Shown here piece by piece: positions 97 to 64,000 of a stretch of DNA of 64,000 nucleotides. The notes under the pieces are model-generated. The model did no database searches, was not told the DNA's origin, and saw only the letters and a program-made list of their open reading frames with translations. The DNA comes from Opisthorchis felineus (lineage: Eukaryota > Platyhelminthes > Trematoda > Opisthorchiida > Opisthorchiidae): positions 1,166,572-1,230,571 of the forward strand of contig SJOL01009403.1 of NCBI GenBank assembly GCA_004794785.1, written 5' to 3'. Made by a program: the position numbers and the translations under genes. Within the stretch, counting starts at the first letter, position 1. Each line of letters begins with the position of its first letter.

Positions 97-134
97 ACAC
101 TACTCATCAGGTTGCTGAAAACTCTTTGACAATA
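97..134 (-). repeat. Hammerhead element fragment (stem I arm)
   Basis: The stretch CACACTACTCATCAGGTTGC followed by TGAAAACTCTTTGACA matches the distal stem I arm of the repeat family described at 49170-49330, read on the minus strand. The ribozyme core is missing because similarity stops at 134. Confidence 0.6.
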
Positions 135-6699: not shown

Positions 6700-7075
6700 T
6701 TCATTTGCATATAAATCTAATTTTTACACGACACTCAACTGAATCTCTCGTTTAGGATATTCTTCAACTGAACATGCTGCACAAAGGCCGCCTTATGTTT
6801 CACTTGGTACGATATTCGAGATATCGTAGTATGTTCTCATAAAGGATTATGTCTACCTGATGAGCCCCAAGAAGGGCGAAACTGGTCGTGGGCTATCGAA
6901 GAGTTTTCAGCAACCTTGTGAGTAGTTTCCTTAATGAAAACACTGCGACTTCTCGAATATCATACCAACTGAAACATGAGGCGGCCTTTGTGCAGCACAT
7001 TCAGTTGAAGAGTATCATAAACAAGAGATTCAGTTGAGTGTCCCGTGAAAATCAGATTAATATGCAAATAAGTGT
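6700..7075. mobile_element. Head-to-head hammerhead element pair
   Basis: The left arm (about 6700-6845) is in minus orientation and contains TCAACTGAACATGCTGCACA and AAGGCCGCCTTATGTTTCAC. The right arm (6951-7070) carries the inverted copies, AACTGAAACATGAGGCGGCC and TTTGTGCAGCACATTCAGTT. The + ribozyme at 6851-6893 lies between them. Together they form a fold-back of about 370 bases. The right arm continues into the second + copy at 7100-7190, so the + unit is tandem with a period near 290 bases. Confidence 0.75.
6851..6893 (+). ncRNA. Type I hammerhead ribozyme, intact core (copy at 6.85 kb)
   Basis: Core elements in order are: stem I strand GTCTAC (6851-6856), CTGATGA (6857-6863), stem II GCCCCAAGAAGGGC (6864-6877; 4 bp with a 6-nt loop), GAAA (6878-6881), short stem III ACTGGT, cleavage triplet GTC with predicted scission after C6887, and stem I strand GTGGGC (6888-6893). 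GTCTAC pairs with GTGGGC over 6 bp with two G-U pairs. A distal extension, CTCATAAAGG upstream with CCTTGTGAG downstream, pairs with one bulge. All catalytic positions of the consensus (CUGAUGA, GAAA, UH) are present. Confidence 0.82.
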
Positions 7076-7099
7076 TTTTGTCGAAATCAGCCAAGTTTG

Positions 7100-7190
7100 G
7101 GTTCAAGTAGAACATAAGGTTGGCGGAAACTCGGGGACTGTGCCTACCTGCTGAGTCGCAAGAAAGGTTAAATCGGTCATGAGCTATTGA
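7100..7190 (+). repeat. Degenerate hammerhead element copy
   Basis: GTTCAAGTAGAACATAAGGT, GGCGGAAACTCGGGGACTG and CCTACCTGCTGAG are clear family matches. The core is broken: CTGATGA reads CTGCTGA and GAAA reads TTAAA, so it should be inactive. It is the downstream unit of the + tandem that begins at 6851. Confidence 0.7.
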
Positions 7191-8163
7191 AGGTGTTCCT
7201 TTTCTTTACACGGCACTACCTATAAGGCCGGTTAAAACACTGTACCTATTTCGCCCCCGTGGGGGCTCACTGGGTACGCCAAGTCCTCCAATTTCACTCA
7301 ATCTTACGTCATAATTTAACACCGACTTGTACGTATCCGGCTATAAGCACTCACTTGAGGGTAAAGTTGGCGTTAACTGGAGACAAGTGAAATTCACCTG
7401 AATCCGTCGTTTACAGTATACTTCATAGCAGTACTTGCGGCTGATGAATATTATAGAGGAGCGGTTCAGCTAAAGGTTAGCTGAGTCTCCGGTTTGCAAC
7501 AGCGGTTTTTGCTAATATCCAGAGCAAAGTCGTGGTCAGAAACATAGCAGGGAGCATGTTGGATCATCTCTGGATAAATTCGCAGACTCCGAACCTGTGA
7601 AATGCAGTGCAGGGCAAGCAAAGTGACCATAAGAGCGTTCTGCACTTAGCGTGATGATGCTTTGAGTGTGTAGTGCGTACGAAATCTACTACTATCACGA
7701 TTTTGACGAGCAACTTCTTTGAAGGATGAGCTGAAAATTCACTTCCAGCAGAGAAAATCACAAAACGTAAGTGGTTTCACCGGTGTCTCGGACGATGTTT
7801 GAAAAGTAGGTACTATTACTGACCGGGAATCAGCGTATTCTGCTCAATCATGTGACTGAACTAGTGATAACTATACCGAAAATGCTAATAACACGTGACT
7901 GGTTTGGTCATACGACTTAAGGCGATGACATTGGTTACAAAACTCAGAAAGATAGTGATCAATTTTCCTTTTGCAACAAGTTCGGATACTATCTCTTCAC
8001 TGCCGAATCTGACTTCAAAAACTATTTCCAATACCAGTTTTACTTTTTCACCTGAGAGATAAGCCTCGTTGGGCGTTTTGACACGAGCTGTCATTTGTCT
8101 CTTTGAAACCAACTGCTGGTTACACAACACTCTGTGTTGGTATCGATAAGAATGCATGCTTTC

Positions 8164-8282
8164 TTGGTTGTTGATCAGGTGGCTGTGCGCACTGATGATG
8201 TCTCCTCGTATGGTGACGAAACGTTTGCAAGTCAATTGCCAACCTCGGCGAACAGATCAACAGCCACCTGATCAACAACCAA
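8164..8282. repeat. Perfect 23-bp inverted repeat
   Basis: TTGGTTGTTGATCAGGTGGC and the next three bases TGT (8164-8186) are exactly reverse-complementary to 8260-8282 (ACAGCCACCTGATCAACAAC, then CAA). The two arms are separated by 73 bases. The flanks do not continue the match. It could be a fold-back insertion or the ends of a very short element. Confidence 0.7.
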
Positions 8283-10127
8283 TAAACTCACCCGAGCTAC
8301 CAATATTTTGAGGATGTGCTCTCAAAAGCTTTATTTGAGATATACGTTCTGAGACCATGTGAAAACCCTTTCTGCCGTTTCAGTGTTTACTGCCAACCTC
8401 AGTTTAGTTATCTTTTATAGCTCTTACTTCCCTGCTTGTTGTGTCAGCTTACTCCTGACACAACATAAAGTTAACGTACAAAATTTGGTACCCTGCTCTT
8501 TAATCAGCCTTTTCCTACTCTCATACGGAAAAGAGGGAGGACACCCGTTGCGCGGTTGATGCGTTTCTTAGGAAGTCTTTAATCCACAGGAAGCCGCTCA
8601 CCCGTAAATAAAGTATTTTCTATTGATCACTTTCCAGCTGACCAGCTCCACTCAGTTTACGTTGGTTGCATTTGAGTTCATGGGTTTGATAACATAACTG
8701 TTTCACAGATGGGCAGGTGTGAACAACACGGTGAGTTACACGGTGCAACGATAGCGGGTAATCCTAAGACGCATGAATGACAAGCACAGTGGATCGGGCA
8801 CTAGGAGATGTGGTCGTTGCATACCAGGTTGGGCGCGTTTATCTCAGGTGTCCTATTTTTATTCCAAGATAAGAAGACTATGATTTAAAGGGCCTATATG
8901 TAAAGACTCTGACTGTTTATGTATGTACGCTGGACAACCAAACATTCGTGGCAAAAGGCCAGTGAGTGGGAATATAATTTACAGGAATTAACACTTTCAC
9001 TTCTCTTTTGTAGTCGGAAGGTTTATGAAAACTGTTTATGCAGACAGTGCAATCACCAGTAGCTCCGAGTGGATACAGCGTTTTAGTCGAAACTAACCGC
9101 GACCACAAGGGAAAAGAATACTGGTATTTCATATATTTCAGGTCAGTCCGTGCCTCTATTGAAAAAAACCCGTGGACATGAAAACTTCACAGCTGGTGAG
9201 AATAAGTTTGCACGTGAGCCAACTATCACACTTGTTGAGAATAGTGATGTGGTATCGTTGTGACCAGTGGATTCAGGGTGAACTTCTGCTAAATCGTGAT
9301 CACTCACTACAAAAATGCGCTCGGAATTTCGCCCACCAAGGGAAGTTAAATAGGCTATGGTTTGACGGGGTACCTTACCTATCGGACGCTCGCTGAAGAA
9401 CGTAACAGCTTGCAGTGTGATCATCTTCCTCTGAGGAACACTTTCTCTCAGAGGGTCATTTAAGGTGAAGCTCAACTCAAAAGGGACAATATTTGATTGG
9501 CCTTCAGAGGGGTAAAGCTGTATTTTTTAGCATAAAATTTGTGCAATTCTCCTAACAGGGCGCCATATTTTGAACAAAACTTGACTACTGATTAGTTACC
9601 AAGTTTGTCAGGGCAGAGAGGGGACATACATAGCGACTGTTAGCAATGTTTTATTATTTTAGTGACGGATGTGGAACATTCGTGATTACAATAACGATGG
9701 AAAACAGCGATGGTGCAAACGGCCTCAGATGACCGCTGTCATGATAGCCTTAAAGGCGGAGTTAGAATCTCTTGCGCACGCAGGTTCCAAGTAATATTGA
9801 TGGGCGATCGTCAGAAATAGAGGTTTCGGTTTTTTTTTAGTTAAACCCAGATAAACGAGGTGGGGTTCAGTTTGATCTCCGACTCGTGTGAGCTGAGTAC
9901 GACATTATCATGCCGATGTGATAAACACCGACCAATGTATGTGACTGCAACAGCATGAAAAGCGGATGAACTGTTTGCACTCCTGTGGAGTGTAATCCTC
10001 TTGTGTTGTGCACGGGACCCATTGGTTAGACAAGATTAACGCGATTTAAGGTTCAGGTCAAGTTGTACTTGATCTTGTTGGCTAGAGCTTGACTATGGTA
10101 ACAGGACCACATTTTTTAGACGTAATA

Positions 10128-10216
10128 CACTACTCATTAGGTTGCTGAAATTTCGTCGACAGCCCACGACAGGTTTTGCCCTTCTTGGGGCTCATCAGGT
10201 AGGCGCAGTCCCACAT
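10128..10216 (-). repeat. Hammerhead element copy, core mutated
   Basis: Read on the minus strand it gives GGGACTGCGCCTACCTGATG, AGCCCCAAGAAGGG, then CAAAACCTGTCGTGGGCTGT. CTGATGA (complement of 10192-10198) and stem II are intact. The G of GAAA is changed to A, which removes an essential core base. GCCTAC pairs with GTGGGC, as in other copies. Confidence 0.72.
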
Positions 10217-10799
10217 TCTCCTCTGCTCCTCCTGCATTGTGAAGTAATTTTATCGTCGAATAGCTACACTAACCGCTTCTTTGTTTCCTCTTATCTGAGA
10301 ACGGCCTGCTTCTCAAAAGTCTATCGGGTCATTATATTGGTTACTCACTTGTTTTAAAGGTTGGTAGTATCTACTCTCGCTTGGGACCACATTTACAGCA
10401 GACGACGACTGAGGGTCACTTTTCAATGCAGTTCCCAACGATCACCAATGGTCAAGAAAAGCACATTTAACGTGGGTTACACCTATCACCCAATTTGCTT
10501 GCTAATGAAGAAGTGGACGACGCAGAGGTAAAGCTGTGTTTGGGAATAGTGTTGTACTGATTGCCTTTGTAGGCGAAAAGTGAATTTGTTTAAATGAACA
10601 AATGAATCACTAACCGCGGCTCAAACACCCTAACCACACTGTCCAAGACATAAAATCTCTGTGATTTCGATATTTTTCTGTACTGACCATTCATTCGTTT
10701 GTTATTAACAGCCTTAAACTGTTGGAAAACAGATGGATGAGCCTGACAACTAGCCCAGAGTTCAAAGACGAAGTGTCCCACCGCGCCAAAAATGCACTG

Positions 10800-13052: not shown

Positions 13053-13227
13053 TATGCCGCGGTTGCCGCATGCCCATCTCAAACACAGTGGAAAAGTCTA
13101 CTTACAGAACGCTGGAACTTGAAGGCACCCACGCTCATCATCAGTGTAATCGGGTCACGAGCGGAACTGAGCAAGAAGTTCAAAAGGACATTGAAGAATG
13201 GGCTGTGGAAAGCTGCGGAAAGTGCCG
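13053..13227 (+). CDS. TRPM exon: start of MHR1 (first exon found)
   Basis: The acceptor is CATTCCCATTAG and the donor is GCCG|GTAAGC. The exon starts in phase 0 and leaves one base of a split Gly codon. It encodes residues 1-58 of the reconstruction, including [21 protein letters not shown] and [17 protein letters not shown]. These match the TRPM block in which an LLT..W.L motif precedes a beta strand (LLISV) and the RGL.KAA..TG helix of the SLOG-like nucleotide-binding fold. A stop codon (TAG at 13050-13052) sits right at the acceptor, so the exon cannot extend leftwards. It must be joined to an upstream exon ending in phase 0, which I did not find. Confidence 0.9.
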
Positions 13228-16200
13228 GTAAGCAGAGTTCGCTTTATCACGTCTCATGCTTTAATCAGCTTGACCTTAATTCAAAGGCGGAAACTCAGAA
13301 ACATTGAAATGTAAGCAGTCCAGCCAGTCTTTTCTACTGCACATGTATTGTACACACCAACTTTGTGTAGAACGGATTTCAATATATCAGGGCCATATAG
13401 TGCTATCTCAAGCCCACCATCAATCAATGCGTGGCGTCATTCTTCTGTCATACCTATTTTCTTGTAGCAGCGAAATTACTGAGCGAATATGTTACAGAAG
13501 CAGACCTCGAGGTTGTCTGTTAGCATTGGGAAACTTGTTCAAGTCGCACTTGGAGAACTTTCATAACTTATCCACGCTGAATTCTACAGATAATGTACTG
13601 TCAAGACGGCATCCAATTCTGGATGGAAGTATAGTAGCATTGTGTTGGCCGTTTAATTGTGAGATTTGTATACAGTACGAATGTAAACCTTCACGATGTC
13701 TCAGAAATTACTGGTCTGGTTTTTGCCCCAAGTTTGCCGAATTAGTGTTCATGGGCGAACAATTCGATGAAATCCGAGTGCTTTTTTACTTGGGGGAGCC
13801 ACAAGTGTTTTTTGGTTACTTGTTCCAGAAGATCAACCACGCCAAATCTATTTTATTTGAACGAAGAAGTTTCGGTCTTTACCGAATACCAAATTCCACC
13901 AGACAAACTTAAATGACAATGTGTCACTTGCTTGGAACGATTGTGTCGAAACATGCGAACGCCTGACGCTGCAACAAATCACTTCATCAGTGCATCACCC
14001 GGCTTCAGATGGTACATAACTGGTTGTTCCAGTCACATCTTGTTTTGCGGGACAGAATGCACGTAGTTGATAGGTTTTCGAATGGAGAGTTTTTCCCACA
14101 GTCGGATCAGTCGGTCGACGTCAAGAAAATCATGGAATAATGCCGCATTAAAGTGCCGATATTTAAGACAAGCCAGTTTGGTACCTGAACTGTTCGGCCC
14201 ATCAAAGTCCACGACCACTAGGTGAAAATCAGACCACGTTTTGGAGAATTCTCTTGAGCTTTTGAGGCACAAAAGCCGACCAAGCTAAGCACTTTGATAT
14301 TTTATCGAACTGCTGCTTAAAAAACACCATGGATAATTTTCTATGCGTACTAGGGAAATTTTGGAAGCGACCAGCAAACAGTCTAAGTAAAGATACGACA
14401 GCATATAATAGTCAAAAGCAGACCCCCAAAGCAACCCCATTAGAAAGATCGTACAGTAACGGCATCAGCTCAAATTAGGTAACCTGACCCCAGTATCATC
14501 ATCCGTCGACTGCCTTGTTAAAAAACGTTTAAAACTCTTGAAAAGCGGAAGGACACTATGAAATACCAAAATCTGTAGCAGATTTATTCCAGAAAATTCA
14601 TTTTTATAAGGACCATTTAGTTGCCACATAAAACCAATCGTCTGGTCGTTCCTGCGAATGCCGTCCTTCAGAGCGGACCTATATGACCATGTCCTGGAAG
14701 TGGCCCACTACATATTGTGGGCATCGCAGCTTCTGTCTTGCCATTCGGGACAGTTAAGCATGGTTTGGTTTCGTCGGGTCTACTCAGACTATTTTTGTCA
14801 TGCTAGACGTGTTGGGTGACCAACTGGTTCCCTGGAAGTCACGATTTTCAGAAACCGACCTTCAATCGAGCATTCCCTGGTGCAAAGTGTCTCTTTACAC
14901 AAGATTCAAATTACAGGACTGAAGAAAATTGTTCTCCGATTAAGGATTTCTTTCTAATAGGGTTCATGCTAAATAGAAAGCCCCTTATACACACCAGATG
15001 GTTACAGTCACTGCCGGACACGATGCAAGCACAGCCCAGATTTCTGCATTAGCGATTGATGTAGAATGAGGGGATCCGTGGAGAGTCACAAATACAATAC
15101 AAATACAATGCAACTATAAGATATGTACTCTAGTTTCACACCTCATATGTTCTATGCAGCAGCCCATTATTATTCACTTCGTTAAAGCTGTTGGATTTAT
15201 TTACCATTTCTGGAGAGAGCCTTAAGTCATGGCTCCCAAAACACATCATTTCAAAAGTGAGTAGAACTTGTCTTAGACTGTCTACCAAGCTCCATATCAT
15301 GGTTTATCCGTTCTTGAAGTTCACTGCCTTCTAATGCCTTTCTGTTCGCTTTTATATATCTCAACTATAGTAAACTCATTACAGATCACTCTCGTCTAAA
15401 TAGTCCTCCTTTCCCGACGTGACTACTTTGGTTGACTGAAAACAAGCTGGAGCACCGAAACCCAGCTTACTCTTGTCGGAGCTCATTGACAGTGCCAGGA
15501 TTCGAATTCCAAACATGTGACGCGCGAGACGAACACGCAACCATTGCTCCGCCAGTAAGAGCTGGACACATCTAGGCTATCTAGTTTGAACAAACATGTT
15601 TGCTCTTCGGTTGGAAGGTTTCCTCTTTGTACAAAAATACTCCCTCTACACTATTCATCACACTCGAAGGCCATGGGCACTAGAGTCACCATAGCAACAG
15701 TTAACAGTTCTGAATTTCGTTGGACAATGCTTCGTCAATCAACGCTGAGTATACTACAATGTTTCCGCTGCAGGATGTGTGCTCATCATAGGAACCAAGA
15801 CCGACCGCCAAGCCAGTGACCTGTTGGTGGACTAATGTAAACTACCAAGCTATGGGTGGCTGAGCAGCTGTGTAACTAGGATATTCTGATGGTTATTCGC
15901 AAGAAGCTCTTCCCGTTCATGTTATGCAGAAGCCGGCCGACTCACATGATGCACTTGATAAATTCTTGCTACTCACAAACTGTTAGTAAACAGATGACGG
16001 AGTTTTTCATCAATGCAAGCAAATGAATCGACAGGACAACCTCTGTGCAACCAAGCTGGTAGCTTAGTTCCCATATTCGCAATTTACATTGGCGTTAACT
16101 AAGGGTTCAGCTAAATCTCCCGTTTATGACATCCTTCAACTGAATGTGTTGTACAGAGGCTGACGCATTCTTCGGTTGACACGATATCCGAAATACCGAA

Positions 16201-19200
16201 GTCTATTTTCTTGACGTAGCACTATTCATGAAGTTGCTGGAAACCCTTCGACAGCCCACCACCGGTATCACCCTTCTTGGGGCTCATCATGTAGGCACGG
16301 TTTCCGAGTTTCTATAAATGTTTCCTGCTTGTACATCAAAGCGCATTCGATTGGCGAGTACACACACAAGTACAAAGCATCCTGAAGAATAAACTGGGAC
16401 TTCAGTTCAGTCTTTCGTTAATACCAGTAAAATTTGAAAAGCAAACATGAACGACTGCCGTAGTTCCATATCACCTGCTCCGTTTGTGATGCACAGCATG
16501 GAAAACCTGGTCTCGATCACTTGATACTGGCAGACAAGTGCGATGATCGGCGAGTCCGTGGAAAAGGCAAGAGTCCCGCCAAATGATCTGGCCAGTCATA
16601 TTTAGCCAGTCACAAAGGACGGGCGCGTAATCCAGAACTCTACCCACATTCGAATCCGACTGAGCTATAGCAACAGCACTGATTACCTAAATTGAGTCCT
16701 TCCGAACTCTGAACTAATTAACCTGGGGAAGTTGGATGTTTCGGGTGTCCTGACCAAACTAACGGGAATTCAAGTGTTCATATCAAAAGTACGCACTCGA
16801 TGTGAAGAAAGTACACATTATTACTCAGTAATCTATGTGTGTCCATGAAGTACGCGGAGTCTGTAATCTCTTGGTTGCTTTTATTTGCCACCGGTATAAC
16901 GGTTATCGCGAGCTGGCTAACCCCACTACGGTTGACGTCGACTGTCTCTTGGAGCAACTTATTTCCAAAACAGAGTGTGAGTTTGCATTCCACTAAATGA
17001 GTAAAGCGGACATAGCCGTATGGAAGCCTCATGGGAGTGAACACTCATACTGGTGCGCATGTCAGAAAAGTACGTAAGTGCGCTGTATCTCTAAACTGTG
17101 TTCTGGTTGCGATTTCAGGTGCTCGGGTTTCGTAGGTTTGGGTTGCGATTCCTTATCATGTGGCGGCAAACAAAGAAAAATTTTCCATCTATACCACGAA
17201 CACTCTACAGATACCAGTAAAATTTTGCCTGTCCGTTCTTTTACCATGTTCCTACTTGCCCTTTCAACCGAGACGCGTATTTCTTTGCTGAAAATCCATG
17301 TAAAGGTGTGCAAGAATTTTATTTAATTAACTTGACTTAACTTGCCCTGACAATGTCACGTCAATGGACACTGAAGATACTCGGAGCCACGAGCTTAATA
17401 AAATTCAGTGTTGTTGAGTCCTTCGGGAAGAGACATCTGTTTGTGTCTTTTTCTGATCATTTATAGGCTGCTGGATAGTCTCCGACTCAATGGACAGAGG
17501 ACTGACAAAAGTTGCTGGTGAGGCTGTCCGTGATTACAGAGAAGCCTACGGGGGCGACCGCATGGTGCTAGTTGGTGTGACCTCCTACGAGAAGCTAATG
17601 TTTCGGAATTTGTTCAAAACTGATTCAAGAGAGGTACGTTAGAAATTCGTTTGCACGTGTTGATACGGTGTGCCCCCCTAGAGCGACCACCCACGTACAT
17701 GTTGGCAGCTCTGGAGTGGTCTTTTTCGATCGGCCCTGTAGGAGGATGCCGTCGACAGTTTTTACCGTGATAGCAAAGTCAGTAAGACTCCAGCCGCAAT
17801 CGGGCACTAACTGCCAGATAATGATCTGATTTTTATATCATCAACTTGCTACGTGATGTGCACGACATTTTTTTTGTTACACCTCACCTGGTCCATATGA
17901 CTCCTGTACTCTCCTCTCTCGCCAGTCGGACTTTAGTTCCCGATTCGCCCGTCTGTATATTTTTTACAGACAGGATACATCTTGAAGCCAGAATGTTTTT
18001 GAAGTACTACCATCCCGCACAAGATAGCTTTATGAGATAGTTTTTTCCCCGCTGGTCTGCAATGACATTCAATATCATCATGGTCGTGTGTGACGAGAGC
18101 TGGTATAGTGTGTACCTTGCATTTCTCAAGGAAATGCATCCGATTACAGGTTAGCCACCTTTTCAGTTGCATTATATTTTTGCGACATTGATCTGATGGC
18201 ACCTGGTAACCAAGTGAAAACCTTTTGATGAGATGAATTTGGGGTGATTTACTGGAACCAGTGTGTGACGATCAAATAGAATAAACAGGATATTAACTGG
18301 AGAGAAATTGAGAGGGAATTCGATCAGCGTTACCCATCTGAACACTTGGCATACTCTAATTTCTCCGTATGAACCATAGCAATTTCCTCAGTAATTTGGT
18401 GCTTTGTGCTCAACCTTACCAAATATCCCTCGTGACCTTTTAGGGAAAAGACGGACACTATGTGGTTCAGTATCCTGAAAAACTATCGGAAGACGAACGC
18501 GACGAAGGAGTAGTTAGTGCAGACAGTTCCTTGAACCTTCCTTATTGGTCCAAAGATCCTGATGAAATTCATGGCACACAAGACGACAAGCTGGGGCCGA
18601 ATTCGAAGCGTCGAATGAAGCACCATTTCCGATTGAACGAGAATCACCAATTTGTGGTAATGATGGACCGACAGGAAGATAAAGACAGCTCTAACAGAAA
18701 ACACCTTCTGGACTTACGCATCATGCTTGAACGGATCCTGGTTACTTGGGCCAAAGTAAGCTCATGTTTCATCTAATATACGCACCAAAACACCTTAGAG
18801 GAAAAACTCTTTGTGTACCCATTAACTGGGTAGGAAAGTGCTTTCAACTCAATTTTACGAGGTCAGTTCTCTTATTAGAAAGCTTCACGAATGTAGCAAG
18901 AGTCGACAGAACGTGGGCTTGGTGCACTGTGTGAGGGGTCGAGAACTCGCACTACCCTTTTTTCAACCCGCAGGGTGGTTTTTCCGAATGTTGAGCTCAT
19001 ATATTAGGACTCCGTGGCTTAGTTTAACCCGTGAATCGAGATAGTTAACGTAGCAGTTCAGTCAGCTGATGTCTTGCGGAAGCCTACTGCTGGTTTGCCG
19101 GAGGCAAGTGGGGGAATGCCAGACTGTGCTGAAAGAAGCACCGAAACATTAGTTGAAAACAATATTACTTAAGTGGCTTATTCACGAATTTTATGGAGAG

Positions 19201-40200: not shown

Positions 40201-43200
40201 AACGTTGAAGAAAATCTGCCAGTCTACCAACGTTAACTGGAGGCTTTTTGATGAATATGGAGATAGCTTTCGTTCTAGCCGCAAGGCGAAGAATCCGGGT
40301 ATCCAAACAATAAACAAAAAATCATAGAAGTTTCGACCTATTTTAGCCGAACCTGTCTGTTATCGCCTGCTATCTCATGATCATTCATAGCTACAATGAG
40401 TTTTGATTAATCCGGTCAAACATGATTTCTTCCTTCATCAGAAGTGAACAGCGCAACGCTCGAGATGTGTAAGCTTTAATTGACAGCTCCTCTGGTGAAC
40501 ACTACCGTACGTCGGTGGATTGCTCTTAAAGAGTGCTGGGAATTCAACGAATGCCTGACGCTTCAGTTTTGTATTTTGATCGTATTCTGATTATCTTGGA
40601 ACAGAACCCAGAAAGGCCTATCAATGCTACAGTTCTCTCCATCTGCAGACCATCCATAAAACAGACCCTTGCCGAACAGGCATCAGTATGGGCAGCTTTT
40701 TAGGGCTTATTCCGTATGACAGGACATCTCCGAAAAAGTTCATTTCCAAGGAAGGTTGACCTAGTTTGTTCGTGCATCATGTCTCTTCAAAAGAAGAGGA
40801 AAGGAGTTCATTGCATTCAGGTTACCGAGCTTGAACAAGTCAGTTCCACTATTTACACATTCCATATTTCCTGAAGGATAGCCAGATGTATAATTTAAGG
40901 AGACTTAAACTGCAGCACACTTGAATAGAACGAAAGAGCACTCATTAGTTCACATCACGGAACACTTGCCAAAGTCGCTATTCAGATCGAGCAATAGATA
41001 TTCGGAAACCGGCATCAGTGAACACTAATGATGCGCCAAACTGAACTGTCAACCAGAGATCCCGAATTTATAGTCGTCAGACCAAATGTCCACTGATGCG
41101 CTGGTAGGACGCTGCGCCTATCTGATGCCTCAAACCCATCCCAGAAATCTATGATGTTGTGCTTGGCTTCAATGTGTTAAGACAAGACACGTGAATGTTT
41201 GAAAAATCCCATATCTTATGAGCCTGCTTCCTTCCACCCCTGCTGTTTGTCTACGTCCATTTCCCCATTTAGCGTAGATTCACACCTTTCACCCATTTCG
41301 ATGTGCCTCGAACTTCAATGACCTTTCCCCCGTTTCGCATCTCCACATCACTACATCTAATTCTCTCTGATTATGTGCTAGTTGGCTGCATTTTCTATGT
41401 TTTTCTTGTCTACTCCCCATTTAACCTCAGTCGAATAAGACGTCACGAAATTTCATGAACCGAGTAATTCTGCGAAAACGTTTTTTACTTGGCACTTGTT
41501 TCAAATTACTCAGTGGGAACCTTTGCTTTGTAAATGTCTCTCACTGGAGGGAAAGAAGAAAATGCGCTAGTCCTGTGAAACATTTTCCATTCCGGTTTCA
41601 CCCGATGGTAGGCCCTCCGGAGCAAAATAGCTGCAAGCTGTTCTAAAACAGCTGCTCTAAGCTAAAAACACCGATGACTTTTTTCTCTTAGCCGAACATA
41701 CTTTTACTGAAAACTCTCCAAGACCTCACGACCCGTTTCACCTGTCTTCGTTCTCATTGGGTAGACGGAGTCTCTGAGTTTACCTTCAGTTAACCTTATG
41801 TTCTAATTGAACCCAAATTGAACCCAATTCGCGAAACACTACTCATTTGCACATTAATTTGGTTATGAAGGTAGACTCAGCTGAATTCCAGCTGAATCTC
41901 TCGTTCATGATATCCCTTTATTCGTATATCTGACAGGAATGACTTTCCACGATGCATATTTCTTTCGTTTTCAGAAAGGTGCTTTAGATGATTTCATGTT
42001 CACCGTAATTCTGAACGACCAAAATGATTTTGTGGGCCTTCTGCTGGAGAATGGATTTAACTTGGAACATTTTCTATCGGTTCACACGTTGGAACGCTTG
42101 TACACAGAAAGTCTGAAGAAAACAGTAAGCACTTTTCTACTCACAAATAGGTGCGTGTTTTCTGAAGCTAATTGCTAAGAAAAGCAACATTATGAAACGT
42201 ATATTCGGTGCTATGTTTGGCAATTTATAAGGTCACCTATATTTTCCCAAAGGATATGGTGACTGAGCATGATGTTTTAACCTAATACTTGACGAATTCT
42301 TTTTTTAAGTGGAAGGCAAGTGTTCCACACCTGCAGATATTTTGCAGTCTTACAATGTCCTACTTGTGGCGCCTTTCATCGTCCTGTTTTCGAAATCCCC
42401 TATTTATCTTAACAGTCTGGCTACTGGATGGAATAATACAGGGGACTGGATGGATAACCTTTACACGCCTACTCTGACTTGCACACCAAATTCAGCTTTT
42501 TTCTCGTGTGCACCTCGAACAGGGCTCTCATATCTGAAGAAACAACTTTTTCCCGGTCCCTTGAGCTTCACCATTGTATTAAAAGGTAAAATTTCAAGTT
42601 CTCAAAAGGGACCGGAGAATTCTGGAGAACCTGTCTTTTCTATCCCTACCAGAGACCATTTTTTGGAACTCAGTAGGTGTGGACACCATTTGTCCTGGCA
42701 CCTGATTCCTGTTTGGCTATGGGGAGGCAGGTTGTTCAAAAGACTAGTTCAACTCTGCTGGTTACCTTTCGGAAACATTCCAGATACAACCTAATGAACT
42801 TGACAACTGAACGCACCGTACATTGAGGTAGTCCCACACACTGTGTTTACCACAGCAGGTCAGAAAGCGTGATCTCAGTTGTGGTTGGTTCACTCTTCCA
42901 GTCAACGCTACACACAGTTCCGAGTATTGTGACCTCAGTCGTCTGATGAAAGATCAGATGTGTGGCTGGTAATTCAGGTCATCAATGAGAAGTAAGATGT
43001 CCTTGTTCTTCAAAGGCGAAATAAAGCTTTTTAATTCAGTCGGAGAGGTGTCACGTGAAACTGGTCAGCTCTTGTAAAGTGAAGTTGTTAACGACTGAAA
43101 ATTGATGAGGTCACTAGACTTTTTAATTATCATTTTCTGAAGGAGATCCTGTGCCTCTTTAATGGCGCACACTTGGATCGCATCGGTAAACGTAGGTGTC

Positions 43201-46200
43201 TTTCAGGAGAAAGCAAATATACAGATAACTTGGAAAACGGCCAGCATTTCAATAATTTAGGCTAAGAGACCTAGACTTTCTAGATTTCGGCGGGAAAAAT
43301 GGGGATCGGTTACTGCTACTTAGTTTTAACTGACGATGAGGGTCATGGGTGTCCGGAGACGGTACAGTTCAAGAAATCGATCAAATAACGAAGCTTGCTA
43401 CCGGATTCAATATGAAACCTGAACTGGATGATCGACGAAGTATAGTGATCGAAGCAGTCTAAAATGGCGCTTGTTCAAGGCCGCGTGAGACTGACTTTAT
43501 GGCTGAAGTTTCTCTGATGAAACTGCTGCAAAATCGGACAGTCTACTCGTTCCATCAGTTATTAGAACCAAGAAAGTGTCCAGTCGCTGTGACCTGAGTC
43601 CTTCCTGATATACATACCACCAACTGTGTAGTCCGTTATCCAAATAACGGAAAGTGTACTTCATATATATTAATCGACTATAATAAGCAAAATTCGCGCT
43701 ACCCGTCCCATCTGGTACTTCACGTGTTCGATGTTTTGTACCGTGCGCCGTTGTCTTCCAGGTAATTTAATTTTTTTTAGTTGTTTTGTGCTGTGTAACT
43801 CTAGCATAAAACGCTTGTGCTTGCTTATTGTCAGCTTTACTAGCTAGCAACAGAGTTTATAGTTTTCGGCGGTCCACTGCTTGGCGAATTCATGGTACAT
43901 CTACAAGTCTGCTCATCTTCAAAGCACATATCACCAAGTGTTATGACGTGGCTAAGATGTTGACGAAGTGCCTTGTACAATTCAAATCCACATCATTCTT
44001 GTATGAACAGTCCTCTTCCAGGCCTAACGCAATCATTCTCGTGAGTCCATACCAAAAGGGGGGACTCAAATGTCAACTTTATTAGAGCTAGCCAGCAGTG
44101 CATACCCTTCGCCATGTCGGGGTTTGAACTCCGTACATCAGGCGTGCGAGGTGAGCATGTTACCAACACTCCACCAGCTCCGGCTGGTGTTCACGCTTGA
44201 GCGATGTGATTGCGTTGCCCGACGACACTAAGCGCCTCGTGTTAGTCCCAGTTAGGTCGATTGGTCAAAACGCCTGTCAGGACTTCCCAGTCCGGTAGAC
44301 CCACTAACGCCTGAAACCTGCTGGGCAAACTTTGGTTAGTTGTATATGGTTACGGTATGTGTAGAATTCTAAAATCCCACAACCACCAACAACTGAGGTG
44401 CTTTGTGTGTCATAGTAATATTTGATGATCGGTTTTAATTGAAAACTCCACTGAGCCTCATTGGGACCTTCAGCTTATGATATTCTTCAACTGGATCTGC
44501 TGCACAGTTGTCCTGCTGTCCGATACATCGCGGTATATTTTCTTGATGAAGCACACTGTTCATAGGGCTACTGGATAATCTCCAACCGCTGCAGGTTTCG
44601 ACCTTCTTGGAACTCATCGGGTAGGCGCATTCTCAGAGTTTCTGTCAACATTATGTTCTACTTGAACCTGTATTGTGTGCGATTCGCGAAGCACACTCAT
44701 TTACAAATTAAGCTGGCCAATGAATAAGCTATCCACTATCAAATCTTTCTTTTTTCCTAAAAGAGTTTGCTATGCTAAACATAAAAGTCGGTTATTCACC
44801 TGACAAAAATGCAGTAGAGCGAGTTGATTTTGTTATGGACTTTCCTTTAGCATGGCATTCATTCTGGTGGTGTTCTGCCATATGGAAAATTATGAATACA
44901 TTTATAAAATAACCTAGAAGAATAACATGCAGCACCGACTATGCCTAGCTCATTACCCATGATGAAATTTTCTCTTTTTTTGTGTATCAGGATTATAAGA
45001 CGGAATTGTTCCAGTTGATGTGGAAACGTGCAAGAATCTACAAAATGGAATGGGTGATGCTTCGTGATGTCGGTCGAATTATAAGGACAATCATGGGAGA
45101 CTTTTACCAGCCGCTTTATTTAACCCGACGATTCAGAAATACGGTGATACAAGGAGGGGCGTTTGATTCAAGTGAGGAGGACGAGGAGGTTGGTTCCAAC
45201 CAAGGTCAGTGTTGAATTTTATTACAATCGTAGAATAATATCAGTCTTTCAAAATTCAGTGAGTACGGAACCTGGGCCTGACTCGGCGAACTACGTGAAT
45301 TGAGGAGCATTCTTTAAGGAATTGCGCTTTGAAATCGATGCGAAAATTCTACCTAGGATAGGAACTTAAGTAGGCCTACTGGAAGTGGAATGTCAAATGC
45401 CCTGAAAAGGGGCAGGAATCCGAGACCTCTTGCTCATCGGATGAGTGCTTTGGCACCCGGGCGAAAGTCGTTACGTTTTTTCATATATTTACTTGGGTTC
45501 GAGGTTGATCCGTCACACCTACATCTATTATATCTAACAGCAGACATTTGGCAGTTTGAACAGTGAGTCCGTCCTGTTACTTTTGTGGAGAGACAGAATT
45601 TAGTATCGCACAGATACCCAAAGGACTCGAATCATGCCAAGGGCATTTGTCTGGTTGTTTGCATCAGGTGTACCTCACGGTTATACAAACACTCTTCTGT
45701 GTCAAACGAAACCACTTGTGATTCTCAGTGAATGAGCCCCTGGGCTTTCAAAGTGTTGCGTTGAGGCTTGTTAATCGAAGGTGAGTCAGAATAGCACTGC
45801 CACATTTACGCCGCTTCTGCTGGTGTACCTTAATGGTCAACTTCTATGATGCTCTAGTGTTGAAAGTCCTGGAGCAAATCCCCATTCCATCTTAGCTCAC
45901 GTGTTTAGCCACCTTATTGGAGCTCCCAGTGAAGTTCCGACCAAAATTGTGTTTCATTTGTACGGTCTCATCTTCATAGCTAATCTCTATAAATTAGTAT
46001 CATTTGAAACCCTATAATGCTCAGTATGGTTTCTTCTTTTTAGGAAAACATGGGAAAAAAGACTCTAATAAGCCAGGCGAATCATCCCTTTCATCCAATG
46101 CGACTTCCGCCTCCACTCTACCCGAAGAGGAAGCTGGGGATGAGTTGCACTTGACTCTGAAGAAGTCGCGCTTATCCAAAAGTGTCACAGGGGACACACG

Positions 46201-49200
46201 GGCGAACGACTTATCCCAGGTTCACGGGAAAACCAAGGAAAAGTTAAACTCCGGCACTCAAATAGGTAAGGACAGTTCCAAGACCAAAACTGCACAGAAA
46301 GCAAGGAACCGTGAACGATCACACTCCAAAGAAGATAGTAGACCTCTTTTGGAGCGAATATCTTTACGAGGTGATTCGGAGGACGAGGCAACACTTAAGG
46401 GACAAAGTGACCAGTCGATTGGTGGCTCGACTGAGACATTAGTTACAGACAGGTTGCGAACAAGCTCTAACCATCGTCATTCTAGCTCTCACTACTCAAA
46501 ACAGACCGAAGGACTTCCTCCCATATCGAATAATGGACGGCGCTGTATTGTACGTCCAATCACTGCATTCCAGTTAGGCTATCAGCCATATGTTGGTTAT
46601 GGTGACGCAACACAAACCAACGGATTGCTCATATTTGGTGAAAACGTGCCAACACAACAGGGTACACATCGCACCTTGCCGCTTGGAAAGCACCGTGTTA
46701 TCGATGGATCCTCACAAGTCCGGTTGTCTAACAGTCAACCACCCAGAGCAATCGCTGAAAGTGTGTCAAACCTAAAACTCATCCGGAAACTGTCAAAGTC
46801 TGAGCAAACAGACAAACAGAGTTTGTCGACAACGGAACGCCGAGAATCGTCGTATATACTACAGAAACCATCAGAAAAAGGACATCCGCGTACGTTCTTC
46901 TTTGGGTCTTATACTGACCGCGAAGGGCCTTGACCTTGCTTACCTTTAGGCTATACCCTGCATACAGCCCAGACTGGATTTACTCAAACTCTATACTTTT
47001 ACCACTCTAACTACCAAAGATGAAAGTTTCATGTATTGCACCAACATCACAAGAGGAGAAACGGTTTCAGAGCCTAACAATAGCGGTGTTCTGTTAAGAA
47101 AATCATTATCTAAACACTGGCATGTGTTTGCTAAATATAGAGTATGGAACATGCTATGACATTCTGCCGCTTACAAAGTTGAACATAGGAGGTGAACAGC
47201 TATCCACATTCGCGAAATTCACTGGTTTGAAAACATCAACTTAATTTGCAGATAATCGTATATCGCGAACTTCATGCAATTTGGGTATGAGCGTGACGGA
47301 AATTCTGGGAATGCGCCTGTTCAATGTGCCTCAAGAAGGGAGAAACCGGTTGTGGGCTGTCGAAGAGCTTTCAATAACATCGCAGTCTTCTAACACTTCC
47401 TGTAGGTACTGGGTGTATCTTGGACACCGAATCATTGTGGCACAATGTGCCCTTTTGATTCCAGCCTATTTTTCTTGTGGAACACTAGTTCCCGAAGTTT
47501 CTTATAAGGTCGTGCAGATTCAGCCCTGCATAAAACAAAGAAGTGATCATTCTAACTACAGCCTATACTGGTAACAACCGCTATCGGCTCGTCTCTCGGG
47601 CATGAGTGGATTTCACACTTGCGATAGTACTAACCCATTCACCCGTTATTGGTTATAGTCTAGGTTCTTACCTCAGCTTCAGTCTTGTTCTGGAAAACGG
47701 TAACCACCACTAGTGGTCGGAGGTAGGTTTTGTAAAAACTGGGCCTCCTCAATTTTTCTGAAACCGCTCTTACCGGCTGCATGACCGTACCATATATGGA
47801 GGTCCATGGGCTTAAAAATGTCGGTTAAGGTAACATGACTTGGGTGTGAGAGTTGTTCACACCGAGTTTTCTTTCGATGACCGTGAAAGTGTCTTTATAT
47901 AGGCTTAAGTTTTTAGGTTTATGTAAATCAACTATCACATTCTGTTCTGTCTTTGCATTATACGCTTTAAAACAGAGCACCTGAAAATTGTCCTGGCCAT
48001 CCATAACAGACTAGTTTTACAGCAAGAATCCAAGTACACACTGAGCAAACAAAGGCACCAACCAGGAGAAGGTGTAACTGTGCGACCCCTTGGTAGGAGT
48101 TACTCGATGAAATTTCTGGTTACAACAGAGCTTTAGGCTAGTCTCTTTGTGATAGACTAAGTAATAAAGTCTTGAAAACTTGTCTAAACCAGATTCTTGT
48201 GCAAATGAGTGTAATGTCGAATGCTGTCTAGTTTGGGTTTGAGTAGAACAGAAGAATGATAGAAACTTGGGGACTGTGCTTCCCTGATGAGCGCAAGAAA
48301 GGGTGAAACCGGTCAGAATCGGAATAGTGTGTGCAACTTTTTTAGTACCACTGTTATTTCCCCTTTTTGCAGCTTAGTAAATCAGCTCCTTGTAGCGGCA
48401 CTGACAGGCTGTACGTCGATTATTTCCCCAGTTTGTTTGTTTTTAATAAGCCCACCGTACTGTACCTTTAGCTGTGGTGGTGGTCAAAGTTCATTCTGCT
48501 TCTACTGAGGCGCGATCGAAATCACATGAAAGACGACGATCCCACGCACAATTTGCTGATCCTTCCCCCAGACGGCGATCGAACTCTGCCAGTCCGTTCA
48601 CCTTCACACCCCGAGGAGTCAAAGGGGAACCACGTGCCCGTAACGTACCTAACCAAAGAAAATCCATTATTTCTGGGAGCCGCGTCGCTCATTCACTTTT
48701 GCACCCACTCACTGATCCAGAGATAGTACAGCTCCAGCTAAGAGAAGCGGAGCGAGTCGCTCGTGAACAGCGTCGTGAGAAGGAACGTCGGCGCCGACAT
48801 CGAGTCGCCCAGGGAAAGTTTACCCTACTCGAACGACTGACGGGGAAAGCAAAAGAACACAGTAAGTGACAGTTTTAGAACTTTGTTAGCATCCACAAAT
48901 CCAAGTTTTCTGTTCGGACTGTTTAATCCGTCATTAAATTATTACCAACCAGCATTAGAGTTTAGGAGTATCCGATAAATGTATGAATGCAAACTGCATA
49001 TTTTTAACGCCCGAAGATGGAAAAAATCAATTTTGCGCAGTTTCACAACCTACCGTGCAGTCCATGGGGAGCCTAAGAAATGAAATACTGCCCGGTATAA
49101 CAAGAATAGCCAGCACTGGGGTTGAAAATGCGCAGTAATGGTTCGTTAATGGTAAAACTCGTCTCATCTTTGTTGAATTTCGCTCAACTTTGGTTCAATT

Positions 49201-52200
49201 AGAACATAATTTTGACGGAAACTCGGGGACTGCGTCTACCTGATGAGCCCCAATTAGGGCGAAACCGGTCGTGGGCTGTCAAAGAGTTTTCAACAACCTT
49301 ATGAGTGTTTTCCTCGTCTTGTCTATCTCAAATGAGGTCTCATGGTAGAACTTTGGCAGCATGATCATTTCCTTCGATAAAGTCGTCATCTGCATTGGTA
49401 ATGAGATTTGATTGTGCGCGCGCTAAGTACACATTTCCGCAACAGTAGAAGGAACCCCAATCTCTATGGAGCGCATAATCTTCCATCTTGATTACGAATG
49501 GATGGTCTCAATGGAGCGCTTTCTTTTTGCCAGTCACACAGGGATCACATAATTTCGGACGGATATGGACGCCGTAAACAACTTTTGAAACGACTATTTG
49601 GACGTTTCGTTAGTTTTTCGATTAATGACCATTTTCGGAACCTCCAAATAGGAAAAACAAATCAAGATGCTCTCTTACGAAGGTGTATTCTAATTCGCAA
49701 ACGCTATCAACACCAATCCCTGTGAACTCGACAAATATTTAGTCATACTTCATCTGTTTGCCTCAGGTACATTACTTTTAATCCGTATTGCAACTGTAAC
49801 ATATTCCAAAACATGGAGCTACGCACCGCCCTAAGAATAAACTGTTGGCTACGCTAGTTCGAGTCCGCTTACTTATAGCCCACTTATTTGGCAGGGTAGT
49901 GTATCAATAGTGCCAGCAAAGACAATCGCCTGACGTGACAGTCACGAAGTAGCTGATAATCTGCATCACGAAGTACGCAATTGTGATGTTTCTTGTTTAG
50001 TAAATAAATCATTCAAGGAACCAGAAAGTGTCCTGTCTTCGTCTTTGTCTCACCAACCAGAACAGGGCCGGAAAATATCTGTTCGGTAGGTGTGTTTCGC
50101 CTAGAAGGGAGTTTTGTAATATGAATACAGAGAAGTCAGACAATGGGGCTACACCGCAGACCCAGCAAACGCCGATTCCGAGCATTCATCTCGATGAACC
50201 TAAGACACCTTTCAAAGCATTGATTTTTGAGGCCCAAAGACTAGAGTTTAGGGAGCGGTGTACCCACGACCCCTAGCTACCCGAATTTTGCTGTCGGAAT
50301 TCCGTTACATCAGTCATCTTGATCATATATGTGGGCGAACCCGCAAGCACAAACTTCATGAGTGGTAAGACGAAAACTTTAATGTGACTGAGATTCCGTA
50401 TCTGATCCGCAGGTGAAATTTGTTCGCCTCGGTGGTGGTGAGACTGTCCTAGCCTCTCACTTGCTAAGTACGTAGAAAGCTCGACAGTTCGCTCGGATAA
50501 CTTAATAGGATTGCTGAGGTTCCCGATACAGAACTTTGAGTCACGGGTAGTTTTGACGATCCAGAATATCAGAAGGAAGAACTGGGTTCAAAAGTCTACC
50601 GCACTATTTGCCCAAAAGTGAGCAAAATTACACAACAAACGTCAGTTGTTCACGATCGTGGCGTCAGCATGTGTGCAAGTCTGTCATCGACCTGCACAGT
50701 GCAGTGTCAACGCCCGCGAACCGGACAACGGCAAGCGGATTGTTGGCTCGGCAGTGCGGGCTGCGGTCGGCCCTCTGAGGCCAGTCTCCCGATTGAGGTG
50801 CGAACCGCGGAAAACACGACGGAACAGGTCAGGGCAGGCCCAGCAGACGGGGCACGAACAAGAGCGGATAAGACGGTCAGCTGCGCACATTACGCATGTA
50901 CGCACATGCTAATATACGCGAGTCGGACGGTGCGGCCTTCGTGACAAGATGAATGGCGGGGACGCCGACCAAAAGTACATGGGCTGAGTAAGCAAATGAA
51001 CGGGGGAATTATCGCGATGTCATCTTGGAAGAAGCGACATCAGAGATTAGTTATTATGGTGTGCGGTCAAGTACCAGCTTTGGATTTTTGTAGACCGTCC
51101 GTCGGCTTAGAGTGGAAGCATTCGTACCTACCTAGGAAGCTGGTGCGGTAGATTGCACATATTGTGCAGCAAGAGGCCGACACCTGTTTCATCTGAATAA
51201 TGAGAAATCACATTGACTGGAGCACAATCAACGCTGGTAAATTCTCTTCCATAAAATTCACAGAAGTGGCACATCTTGGTGACCCGAAACTCCAGGAGAT
51301 TGACCCGATTGTCTGCTGGGAACTGTTTTTTTCATTAGGCTTGAAGTGCTCACAAACCTGTCGTGCATTTGTGATCTGTGATCTGTGATCTCCATTATTA
51401 AGATGGTTTGCAAAAACCGAGTCTACAGATCACCCATCTCACACGTGTCATAAAACTACTCAATGATGCTTTAGTTCTTGAGACAGGAGAATGAAATAAA
51501 CATGACCCGTTGGTTCTGGCAGCATATTCTAACTGAGTTGCAAATCATCGGTCGACATAGCGATATCTTTCTTTTCACATCTAACTATTCAATTTTTGTA
51601 TTTCAGGACTAGAAGAGCTGAAACCCTCAAAGCTAGCAAGTAAGTATGTTCCGTACGGCTCGGAGCTCCTTATCTAACCACATTTGTAGTTGGAACCTCA
51701 CGACCATCACTTAGGCCAAGATTTAACGGCATGTTACTTCACATATCTCTGTCACCCTGCGTGAGCTAAAAGTAGGTAGTTAGTTAAACCCCATGTGAAA
51801 ATCTTCAACAGTGAGCAATTTGTAATAGGTGGACTAAAAACGTCATCATACACACAAAATAAGCATATGTGACATTTAGACCTTTGCTGGTAAAATTTTT
51901 CTGCGAATCTGCTCCTTTTTATATCATGTTTGTGGATGGGCGAAATATTTGGGTGGGAGGCAAGTGGATTTTGCGACGAATAACGAAGACTTTGTCATTG
52001 TTTTGTTGTTTTTTTACAGACTTTGCACATTCCGCCACTGTCTACCTTGAGCGTCCAGCGAGAGAGATTATGGTGATGTGCATCTTGTTGGGGAAGCTTA
52101 CCATGGCTCGTCTGTTTTGGACCTACGAGAAGGTATGGAAATCTGGACCCTCCAAACTCAAACCTAGTATTATATACGTTCTGATTGTTGCAGTGTACTC

Positions 52201-55200
52201 CAACGTTAAGGCCCAGAACTCTGGTGAATGAAATGTGCGTTACCAGTTTCAGTAGATTTTATATGAAATATGAACATACTCAGTCTTGGCTAACAATGGT
52301 CACCAATGGCAATAGAAAGTGAGGAAACAGAAGAAGCTGACTGCTAAATTCGCGGAAGACACTCATTTACAAATTAGTTTGGTTTTAACGAGAGACTCAA
52401 CTGAACCCCCGCTGGGTATCCCTTTTATGGCATTCTTCAACTGAACATGTCGCACAAAGGTCGCCTCGTGATTCATTTGGGACGATATTCGAAATATCGC
52501 AATACATTTGCTAGATGGAACTCACTACCCATAAGGTTTCTGGAAACTTTTCAGCAGCCTTATGAGGAGTGTATTCCTCAGACTGATAAATTTTCAAAAA
52601 TGTATGCGAAATAGCAGTAAACAGTATAAAAAAATTGATAAGATTCGTTGGAGCTGAATAAATATGAAGAGAAAATGAGATAATCGGGCGTTTTCCAGAC
52701 CTCAACTTCGGACATTCCAGCGCACTGCAGGATTTGATATGATCTGGGAATGAACCAGCAAGGTGCAAAACAGCTAGTAATAAGAGTGCAAATGCAACTG
52801 TGACCGTAGTTGGACATGCTTTTAGTTGCCTTCTTTAGGACAAATTTTTCTGCAGCCCTGAAGAGTCAACTCATGAGTAACATCAGAAGGAATTTCTGTG
52901 AGCCCATCTCATTCTCAGCGAGGGCTGCGTTACGTGAATAATCCGGTTACATTTGTGTGTAAGCTGTAGCTATGGTTTTAAACCTTCTACGGCTTCTTCA
53001 CAACAAGGGCCCGAACCCAAAGAATTATTAGCAGAGGTCAGCTTCGTTCAAAAATTATGATACCAGCGGCGAGAATTGCGGCGTCCGGCACTCGGTAAAG
53101 CACTAGACTCGCTTCCCAGTAGTTATTTGATGTGACCTAGTCTAAGATAAGAATGACCTCCTTCAAGAAGACATTTTTCCTGGGTGTGTCATACCGCCGA
53201 AAACAAAATGTTTAGGAGCTCTAGAATTCCGATTCCTCCGCATTTCCTTTATCTCTCGGTGGTACTTGCTCACACGATTTCAACCTGACAGGTTCTTGCC
53301 AGCCTATAACTTATGCATCCAGAACCATCATCACGACGTATGAGTATGATGGCTTTAGATATACTGGCCTCTTTTCAGGCCAATGAGACCGTTGAACCTA
53401 CCCAGAGAATGGTTGCAAAATCTCTCTAAAACAGAACAAAATACTCGTTCTTCGTGAGACCATTTACATGGAACAATCCGGGAAGATAGCCCTTCTCCAC
53501 GCTCACTTCATCATGATCTTTTGTTACGATGGACTCACTCTAAGTAAGCCAGACCAAGTAGCCATCGTGAATCTACGTAGGTTGCAGCATAAACGGCAGG
53601 TAATCAGACAAATGTCCACCCAACCTAGACACTACCCCTGGTCCAGTAGCTTTAACACTCCAGCTTCCCGGCCGGACGAAGTGTCCAGTAAAGGTCGAAA
53701 AAACTTTGGTCCGCTAATTGAGTGTAGTTCGCCAGTTGCGTACAATTCGGTGCTCAAGTAGAACAAGGATTTGTCGGAAACTCTGGAAATGCGCCCATCT
53801 GCTGAGCCTTAACAAGGCCGAAACTGGTTGAGGGTTGTCGAAGAGTTTCCAACAACCTTATAAGAAGTGAGCTAGAGTGAGAAGTGAGCTATTCCTTTTT
53901 GAACCCCAAACCAAAGCCACAAAGAAACTCCAGCCACGTGAACATCTGTTCTTTCTGGTAAGATCTCAGAAAACTACATTTTTTATGATGAGTTCTAACT
54001 TTCTTGCTTTCAGGAACCGATTGCTGCCGCACTGACCGCTTCGATTCTGTTTGGTGAGCTTGCCAACAAATGTGACGACGTCACGTGTAAAGAGGAATAC
54101 GAGGAGGCAGCTCGGTAAGCAACGGTTGACTACGGTTGATTCTAGCATTTTCAAAGTCTCAAAAGCTCTGTTGATGATCATACTCTCCATAATCGCTGTC
54201 GGTAAACAATGTGGGCGTCGTACTCCATGACAAGATACCTCCAGACACACTCCATTTGTCAAAATTACTATGCAGTGAATTGAAGAGACACTGCTGATCA
54301 GCCGCTCATGGCCGAAAGGTTGAGTATTCCAACTACCAACAGGAAGAACGTGGATTCGAAACTCTCTAGAGCTTCTTGAGATGCTCACTGCTGATGAGTA
54401 TCAATAAGGACGAAACAGCTGTACAATGCTTCCCGGCCTTTCAGCATAAATTGACTCCCAGGACGAAATCTCCACTGAAATTCCCGGATCTTCTCACGCT
54501 ACCAAGAAACGCAGATGTTGTTGTCCTACTGTCCGTTTTGTCATGAAGACAGTTGCACTCGTACAAAAATAACGATCACACTTTCAACAGTTCATCCTAC
54601 TCCTCCATTTGAGTTGTTCCCTTTGGCTACGGTGCGCTATATTGTTTCGCCCCTGCCTGGCAAACACTCTCAGAAGTGCCCACTTATAGTTGGTCTACCA
54701 CTGAGGAAAATGTTGGTGATGTCGATCACTGTTGCTCTGGTCTCTGAGCTGGACAGCTTGTTTGCGAGTGCTCAATCGCTAGTCTAGGTGACATTGTCAA
54801 TGGGTTGTTGGTATGTATGCATGTGCACATGACTGGCCAGCAGGAATGGACCTGGCATCACTATTTTCGGCCTAAGCAAGTAGTAATTTTGGTTGGTTGT
54901 TGTTGCTTGCGGGATTTGTAGAATTTATGTTTACGTCACTCTCGTTTGAACAATTATATTATTCTGATGAGTCCACATCAAAGGGGGGAAGCACTGGACT
55001 CGAGTTTATGCTTGTTTATTCACCACTTTTCTGACCGGTGGGTATGTGGGTGACCTTTAAACTCGGCTTCATTGCCCTTTCTCACGATCTTTGTTTTACT
55101 GTCTCTAAATTTGTTTTGTGATTTTGAGATTATACTAAATGTTTGGACTTACCAAGAATGGGCCATTTCGTAGAAGAAGTGACCTCTGGTCCTAAACTCA

Positions 55201-63758: not shown

Positions 63759-64000
63759 GTAACTCTTTTGCACAAGTTTTATTTATGCAGCAACTTGAAA
63801 GGTTCTACTAGACTAAAACTGAGGTGTGAAAGTTTTCTTAAAGGAAGACCACTCAGAATATTGCTGAAAATTCTACAACAGCAATCTTGTGAATAGTGTT
63901 CCTCCGAGAAAATATAATGCGATATCCCGAATATCACGCCGACTGAAACACTAGGTGACCTTCATGCAGCAGTCGGTTGAAGAATACTGTAAACGACATA
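63759..64000 (+). other. Start of next TRPM intron with a truncated hammerhead element
   Basis: After the donor at 63759 there is a plus-type element from about 63865 to the window end: TCTTGTGAATAGTGTTCCTC, GATATCCCGAATATCACGCC, ACTGAAACACTAGGTGACCT, GCAGTCGGTTGAAGAATACT. It corresponds to the part downstream of the ribozyme in the consensus. The core, if any, would be upstream and is not recognisable. Confidence 0.65.

Follow-up and report, generated by a model that had tools for sequence, protein, structure and literature searches.

Animal retrozymes, those of platyhelminths included, are described as type I hammerhead units of 170-400 nt, which are thought to pass via circular RNA (PMC7229834). 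Since both kinds of element share type I hammerheads and tandem copies, and since they coexist in all animals analysed, Penelope-like elements were proposed as the helpers of retrozymes (PMC7229834). Penelope insertions typically contain direct pLTRs plus one inverted pLTR, and their head-to-head palindromes have been explained by self-priming (PMC3846280). Hammerheads of Penelope-like elements occur in tandem and have a short or missing helix III (PMC7761336, PMC11167929). A weak helix III has, however, also been described for amphibian and many other type I motifs, thus it is not specific to Penelope, whereas most invertebrate retrozyme hammerheads are said to have a stable one. Cleavage as a dimer has been reported for minimal hammerheads. 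Among the matches listed in our literature search, which took in little of the subscription literature, the hammerhead repeats of flukes were schistosome ones, and none came from a liver or lung fluke.

Here, we analysed a 64-kb stretch of Opisthorchis felineus DNA (64,000 nucleotides, referred to as the window), for which a sequence-only reading had proposed a dispersed family of hammerhead retroelements in about 15 copies or pieces. By using a circularised 284-nt unit as the blastn query, and by counting pieces at E at most 0.005, we found one repeat family of 21 pieces after merging of overlaps. These pieces occupy 3223 bp, i.e., 5% of the window, and they can be grouped into 14 loci on both strands (Table 1). 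An all-against-all blastn of the window agreed with the circular-unit search on the family pieces, and the identical search of the reversed window, serving as the control, gave 0 matches to the family. All 15 positions at which a shared unit had been noticed earlier lie inside the pieces of this one family: thirteen are in blastn pieces, while 6851 and 44440 lie 2 and 13 nt outside of them, yet in nhmmer pieces. One correction to the earlier reading is that the copies are decayed, as only three of the 12 hammerhead cores (6870, 48297 and 49253) retain all nine core bases that were checked.

Table 1. Pieces of the hammerhead repeat family in the 64-kb window (unit positions refer to the repeat unit).
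Feature	Coordinates	Strand	Evidence
Short piece on the 3' side of stem I (unit 46-80)	97..131	-	blastn E 2.7e-7
Locus A, unit 80-230 inverted, facing the 6853..7198 part head-to-head	6687..6846	-	blastn
Locus A, complete unit plus ~56 nt, cores 6870 and 7161	6853..7198	+	blastn, Rfam
Locus A, second inverted piece, strongly decayed (62% identity), decayed core 7276	7200..7425	-	blastn, covariance model
Copy, core 10181, first G of GAAA changed	10110..10221	-	blastn, Rfam
Copy of more than one unit (337 unit positions), decayed core 16269	16075..16422	-	blastn, Rfam
Locus B: ~80-bp pieces at 36393-36477 (inverted), 36482-36571 (direct) and 36736-36825 (direct), core 36643	36393..36828	+	
Coreless piece, unit 144-229	39564..39660	-	blastn
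Copy, decayed core 41739, TRPM exon match 59 nt after	41697..41913	-	blastn
Copy, decayed core 44610; extended to 44429 by nhmmer	44453..44716	-	blastn, nhmmer
Copy, decayed core 47334	47232..47378	+	blastn
Copy ending at the predicted cleavage site (GTC, unit 39), core bases intact, without the 3' side of stem I	48186..48314	+	
Best preserved copy, core 49234-49276 above the Rfam Hammerhead_1 cut-off, outer arms predicted paired	49169..49314	+	
Coreless piece, palindromic head-to-head junction 52517-52577	52347..52577	-	blastn
Copy, core 53812 (CTGCTGA)	53716..53894	+	blastn, covariance model
Coreless piece, head-to-head junction ~63880, truncated by the window end	63833..64000	+	blastn

The unit is roughly 290 nt long (284 nt as the blastn query, 291 nt as the natural monomer). 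The monomer, measured from cleavage site to cleavage site, corresponds to positions 6888-7178, has a GC content of 43%, and is complete in one of the 14 loci, namely locus A. The unit is circular in its logic, i.e., the sequence standing 5' of the hammerhead in some copies stands 3' of the hammerhead in others. Three loci (A, the one at 16 kb, and B) are longer than one unit and cover 340, 337 and 367 unit positions, respectively, versus 284. Two direct cores are present only in locus A, and TRF found no array of the unit in the window. Open stretches in the circular unit reach at most 57 codons on its plus strand and 96 on its minus strand. When the 291-nt unit was folded as a circle, its plus strand showed no excess of stability over shuffles (z -0.5) or over randomly chosen genomic stretches, and the minus strand displayed a weak excess of stability (z -1.6).

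We also searched for the domains of a copying enzyme. No reverse transcriptase (RT) or GIY-YIG domain was found by Pfam in six frames over 3.6-18.6 and 33.4-57.4 kb, where 12 of the 14 loci stand (all but those at 97 and 63.8 kb), and only TRPM domains were detected; a domain in an advanced state of decay could escape such a scan. The 291-nt unit is within the size of retrozymes (approximately 150-450 bp between hammerheads), and, as in retrozymes, a GC content below 50% goes together with a lack of coding capacity, judged from the open stretches of the unit and the absence of an RT domain around those 12 loci. Altogether, the type I hammerhead, the unit of approximately 290 bp, the GC content of 43%, the absence of a coding domain in the scan and, as far as three loci exceed one unit, the partial tandem units are shared with metazoan non-LTR retrozymes as described in PMC7229834. 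The family differs from them in three respects: its helix III is a palindrome with a loop of at most 2 nt, it has inverted head-to-head pieces, which the accessible parts of PMC7229834 do not mention for retrozymes, and it forms no long tandem arrays in the 64-kb window.

The 12 hammerhead cores are distributed over 10 of the 14 loci, and three of them belong to locus A, where the 7161 core is decayed. The covariance model was trained on these 12 cores, thus their full recovery (worst E 2.7e-11) was by construction; its sole further match up to E 5 in the 64-kb window was 54348-54453 (E 0.09). At least one checked core base was lost in nine cores. Both the core and stem I are intact in two of the 12, 6870 and 49253, and the 48297 core is devoid of the 3' side of stem I. 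The Rfam Hammerhead_1 cut-off was passed once, at 49234-49276 (34.1 bits vs. the cut-off of 34), and at this place the conserved core and stems I and II are found in the type I order. Of the two hits which the sequence-only reading had expected from Rfam, the one at 49234 was obtained; around 6851, the stretch 6842-6906 gave a match to Hammerhead_HH9 (RF02275) at E 3e-5 (35.5 bits), below the cut-off of 52 for that family. Weaker Rfam matches were present at 10149-10213 (E 0.004), 16232-16306 (E 0.07) and 36620-36673 (E 1.4). HH9 itself is an amniote intronic hammerhead motif. The pattern CTGATGA-N8-30-CGAAA occurs four times in the window vs. 0.19 expected, and two of these occurrences (6857 and 49240) belong to the family. 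In three of the 12 cores (7161, 36643 and 53812) CTGCTGA stands instead of CTGATGA, which is perhaps the mark of a subfamily.

Stem I, stem II and both outer arms noted in the sequence-only reading were formed in the predicted fold of 49200-49305 (z -2.8). However, the minimum-energy fold of the 49253 copy pairs three core bases (CUG) with the helix III palindrome, so this is not a clean active hammerhead. For the 6840-6930 copy (core 6870), the predicted fold contained no hammerhead (z 0.05); upstream of this core an inverted piece stands instead of the usual arm. Helix III is a short, loop-poor palindrome, ACCGGU in the consensus and A-C-N-N-G-U in complete copies, where at best two pairs are closed by two bases. 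In its sequence context (GAAAC-NN-GGUC) it is not the stable helix III of most invertebrate retrozymes. Weak as it is, it retains four bases that Penelope hammerheads usually lack, and it matches the Penelope type only in part. Since such a helix III is hardly able to close alone, the ribozyme would likely cleave itself as a dimer. As a whole, Rfam, blastn, the predicted fold and the covariance model support the claim that the family is dispersed and combines a type I hammerhead with complementary outer arms.

Compensatory changes, whose absence from an alignment of the copies had been named in advance as a refutation, did not appear above the level of shuffles. The stem pairs were formed in 74.6% of the cells across the 12 cores, compared to 33-45% in slid controls, and in 75.4% of the cells when letters were shuffled among the copies. 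Two-sided pair changes among the 12 cores numbered five vs. a shuffled mean of 5.0, and RNAalifold found five pairs in the core alignment and no more. Copies of a mobile element decay independently, and neutral copies are not expected to show covariation; thus, the lack of compensatory excess speaks against selection on these copies, and not against the hammerhead. Since the pair changes do not exceed shuffles, we conclude that the copies in the window are old, decayed fossils.

Head-to-head inverted pieces were found at four of the 14 loci (A, B, and those at 52.5 and 63.9 kb), and at all of them except B the two pieces meet within the outer stem I arms or next to them. Direct and inverted terminal pieces of the Penelope type are present at four loci, with one inverted and two direct pieces at locus B. 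Within locus A, the two arms share 83% of their bases over unit 150-232 and 87% over unit 80-150, while their identity to any other compared copy is at most 75% and 80% for the respective segments. As the arms are closer to each other than to other copies, their sequences fit an origin in one insertion event. Locus A also has one tail-to-tail joint (7198/7200), which is not the usual Penelope order. At locus B, two direct copies of the 80-bp piece (80% identical) flank the hammerhead, and one inverted copy stands in front, an arrangement resembling that of Penelope pLTRs (PMC3846280). The case is less clear than that of locus A, since the inverted arm is 76% identical to the 39.6-kb copy vs. 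74% and 76% to its own direct repeats.

We then considered where the copies end. Sixteen 3' ends were used, leaving out four pieces that repeat another piece's palindromic stretch and the piece cut by the window; the positions are inferred from similarity, so they may be some bases off and may partly mark fading similarity. Five of the 16 ends fall within 6 nt, at unit 229-234 (simulated P 0.0025), and after removal of dependent ends four of 13 still do (P 0.018). Of the others, eight lie at unit 60-105 (P 0.056) and two elsewhere, and the end at 48314 coincides exactly with the cleavage site. An exact ATGAGTGT or ATGAGTAGTGT is present at most 28 nt from the 3' end in six of the 14 loci and internally in three other loci, and no exact match was found in the remaining five. 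Short target-site duplications are a mark of Penelope-like elements, although not every copy bears them. Here, target-site duplications showed no excess, with true pairs averaging 4.2 nt and mismatched pairs 4.3 nt; one 7-nt candidate was present at 49.2 kb. The term 'retroelement', used by the sequence-only reading, is a sound inference, while neither an RT domain in the scanned stretches nor an excess of target-site duplications accompanies it.

The size and emptiness of retrozymes, together with the joints of Penelope, lead us to favour, by a slight balance of probability, a non-autonomous retrozyme-type element whose genomic copies were made by a Penelope-like element's reverse transcriptase; we infer such an enzyme as the mobiliser of the family. 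Multi-unit transcripts would cut themselves at the hammerheads, probably as dimers, and a linear or circular unit would serve as the template. The Penelope-type enzyme would begin copying at a preferred site, to which the five of 16 clustered 3' ends may correspond, and it would sometimes snap back near the base-paired stem I arms, giving rise to the inverted junctions. Against this retrozyme-type reading stands the finding that no locus has two intact tandem hammerheads among the 12 cores checked.

The main rival reading takes the copies for pLTRs, solo or broken, that stem from an autonomous Penelope-like element of this genome but lack its ORF, and we regard it as rather unlikely. The family shares a weak helix III, direct and inverted partial repeats and head-to-head palindromes with Penelope-like elements and their pLTRs, as far as these are described in PMC3846280 and PMC11167929. 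Solo pLTRs have been reported in a rotifer, and the fluke Fasciola hepatica has annotated Penelope repeats, some of which are expressed (PMC11270206). However, unlike in Penelope-like elements, no RT or GIY-YIG match accompanies the 12 loci scanned in six frames, although a badly decayed ORF could escape; the direct hammerheads of locus A, 291 nt apart, leave no room for an ORF, and the four helix III bases kept here are usually absent from Penelope hammerheads.

Less probable still, in our opinion, is that a LINE moved the family as a satellite- or SINE-like repeat resembling Smalpha, and that the inverted pieces arose by rearrangement afterwards. The SINE-like Smalpha element has a tRNA-type box A and box B promoter. 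No such pair was found in the family with the one pattern used, and TRF finds no unit array; moreover, the head-to-head pattern is common to four loci, and at three of these the junction falls within stem I or next to it. On the other hand, flukes are rich in LINEs, and Smalpha, a SINE-like retroposon of schistosomes, carries a type I hammerhead (PMC8490949). Smalpha and Sjalpha, with which the family was compared by description only, are like it dispersed type I hammerhead repeats of a trematode and of similar length (335 bp in a Smalpha example; PMC8490949), and they differ from it in the pol III-type box pair, of which none was found here. Among the three options offered by the sequence-only reading, i.e., Smalpha, retrozyme and Penelope repeat, the second agrees with the size of the unit and the third with the inverted joints, while the strict box A/box B pair belonging to the first is absent.

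The only box A/box B-like pair of the window (one vs. 0.075 expected from 40 Markov controls) heads, at 54309, a second repeat family, with copies at 54280-54510 (+), 19301-19489 (-) and, in part, 5688-5785 (+); the two long copies share 71% identity along 189 nt. At approximately 54386-54429, 3' of the box head, stands a hammerhead-like core whose loop is a palindromic AGCT; Rfam gave a weak match to it (15.4 bits, E 0.74) and none to the 19.4-kb copy. Judging from its sequence, this second family looks like a Smalpha-type SINE. Other repeats in the window are a MITE-like fold-back repeat at 23129-23274, whose 67-nt arms are separated by 12 nt and are 72% complementary and which has a partner of 70% identity 20 kb off at 43974-44057, and a weak repeat in inverted orientation at 689-757 and 49981-50047 (74% identical over 69 nt).

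TRPM domains (LSDAT_euk, TRPM2-like) gave exon-like matches on the plus strand at approximately 13080-13229, 41972-42157 and 55304-55465, so that a single intron-rich TRPM gene likely takes up much of the window. As ten of the 14 loci stand between these matches, they are likely intronic. Although this position, and the amniote intronic hammerheads with their possible role in mRNA biogenesis (PMC6155905), would agree with conserved functional intronic ribozymes of the TRPM gene, we find that explanation extremely improbable, since the copies are on both strands, nine of the 12 cores have lost at least one checked base, and pair changes are not above shuffles. As for other open reading frames, the search with a 311-aa ORF yielded a single relative, a hypothetical protein from Paragonimus kellicotti with 34% identity, and that with the ORF at 48450-48866 (+) likewise yielded one, an unnamed 127-aa protein (56% identical) on a 973-base contig. 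A viroid-like unit with hammerheads on both strands was rejected: the minus core 7276 sits in a separate inverted piece, and the fold predicted for the best copy's reverse strand contains no hammerhead. Exact DNA-pattern relatives were found neither in viral contigs (two patterns) nor in prokaryote genome contigs (one pattern).

To return to the retrozyme-type unit copied by a Penelope-like enzyme, the family belongs to a known kind, and its noteworthy part is the occurrence of Penelope-like joints on a bare hammerhead unit. A bolder proposal, which we put forward tentatively and consider unlikely, is that the family is a missing link between retrozymes and Penelope, i.e., a bare hammerhead unit bearing the fingerprint of its copying enzyme. 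Copying would then start at a fixed internal site just past a ATGAGTGT-like motif, continue beyond a single unit of a circular or multimeric RNA, and snap back near the hammerhead's own stem I, which would yield the head-to-head inverted copies.

The Penelope-like joints seen here bear on the question of which enzyme moves animal retrozymes. If our reading is true, Penelope-type inverted junctions on a bare retrozyme-sized unit would be structural evidence for a link between retrozymes and Penelope. Such a family might also explain some of the many unidentified repeats that have been reported in a fluke genome.
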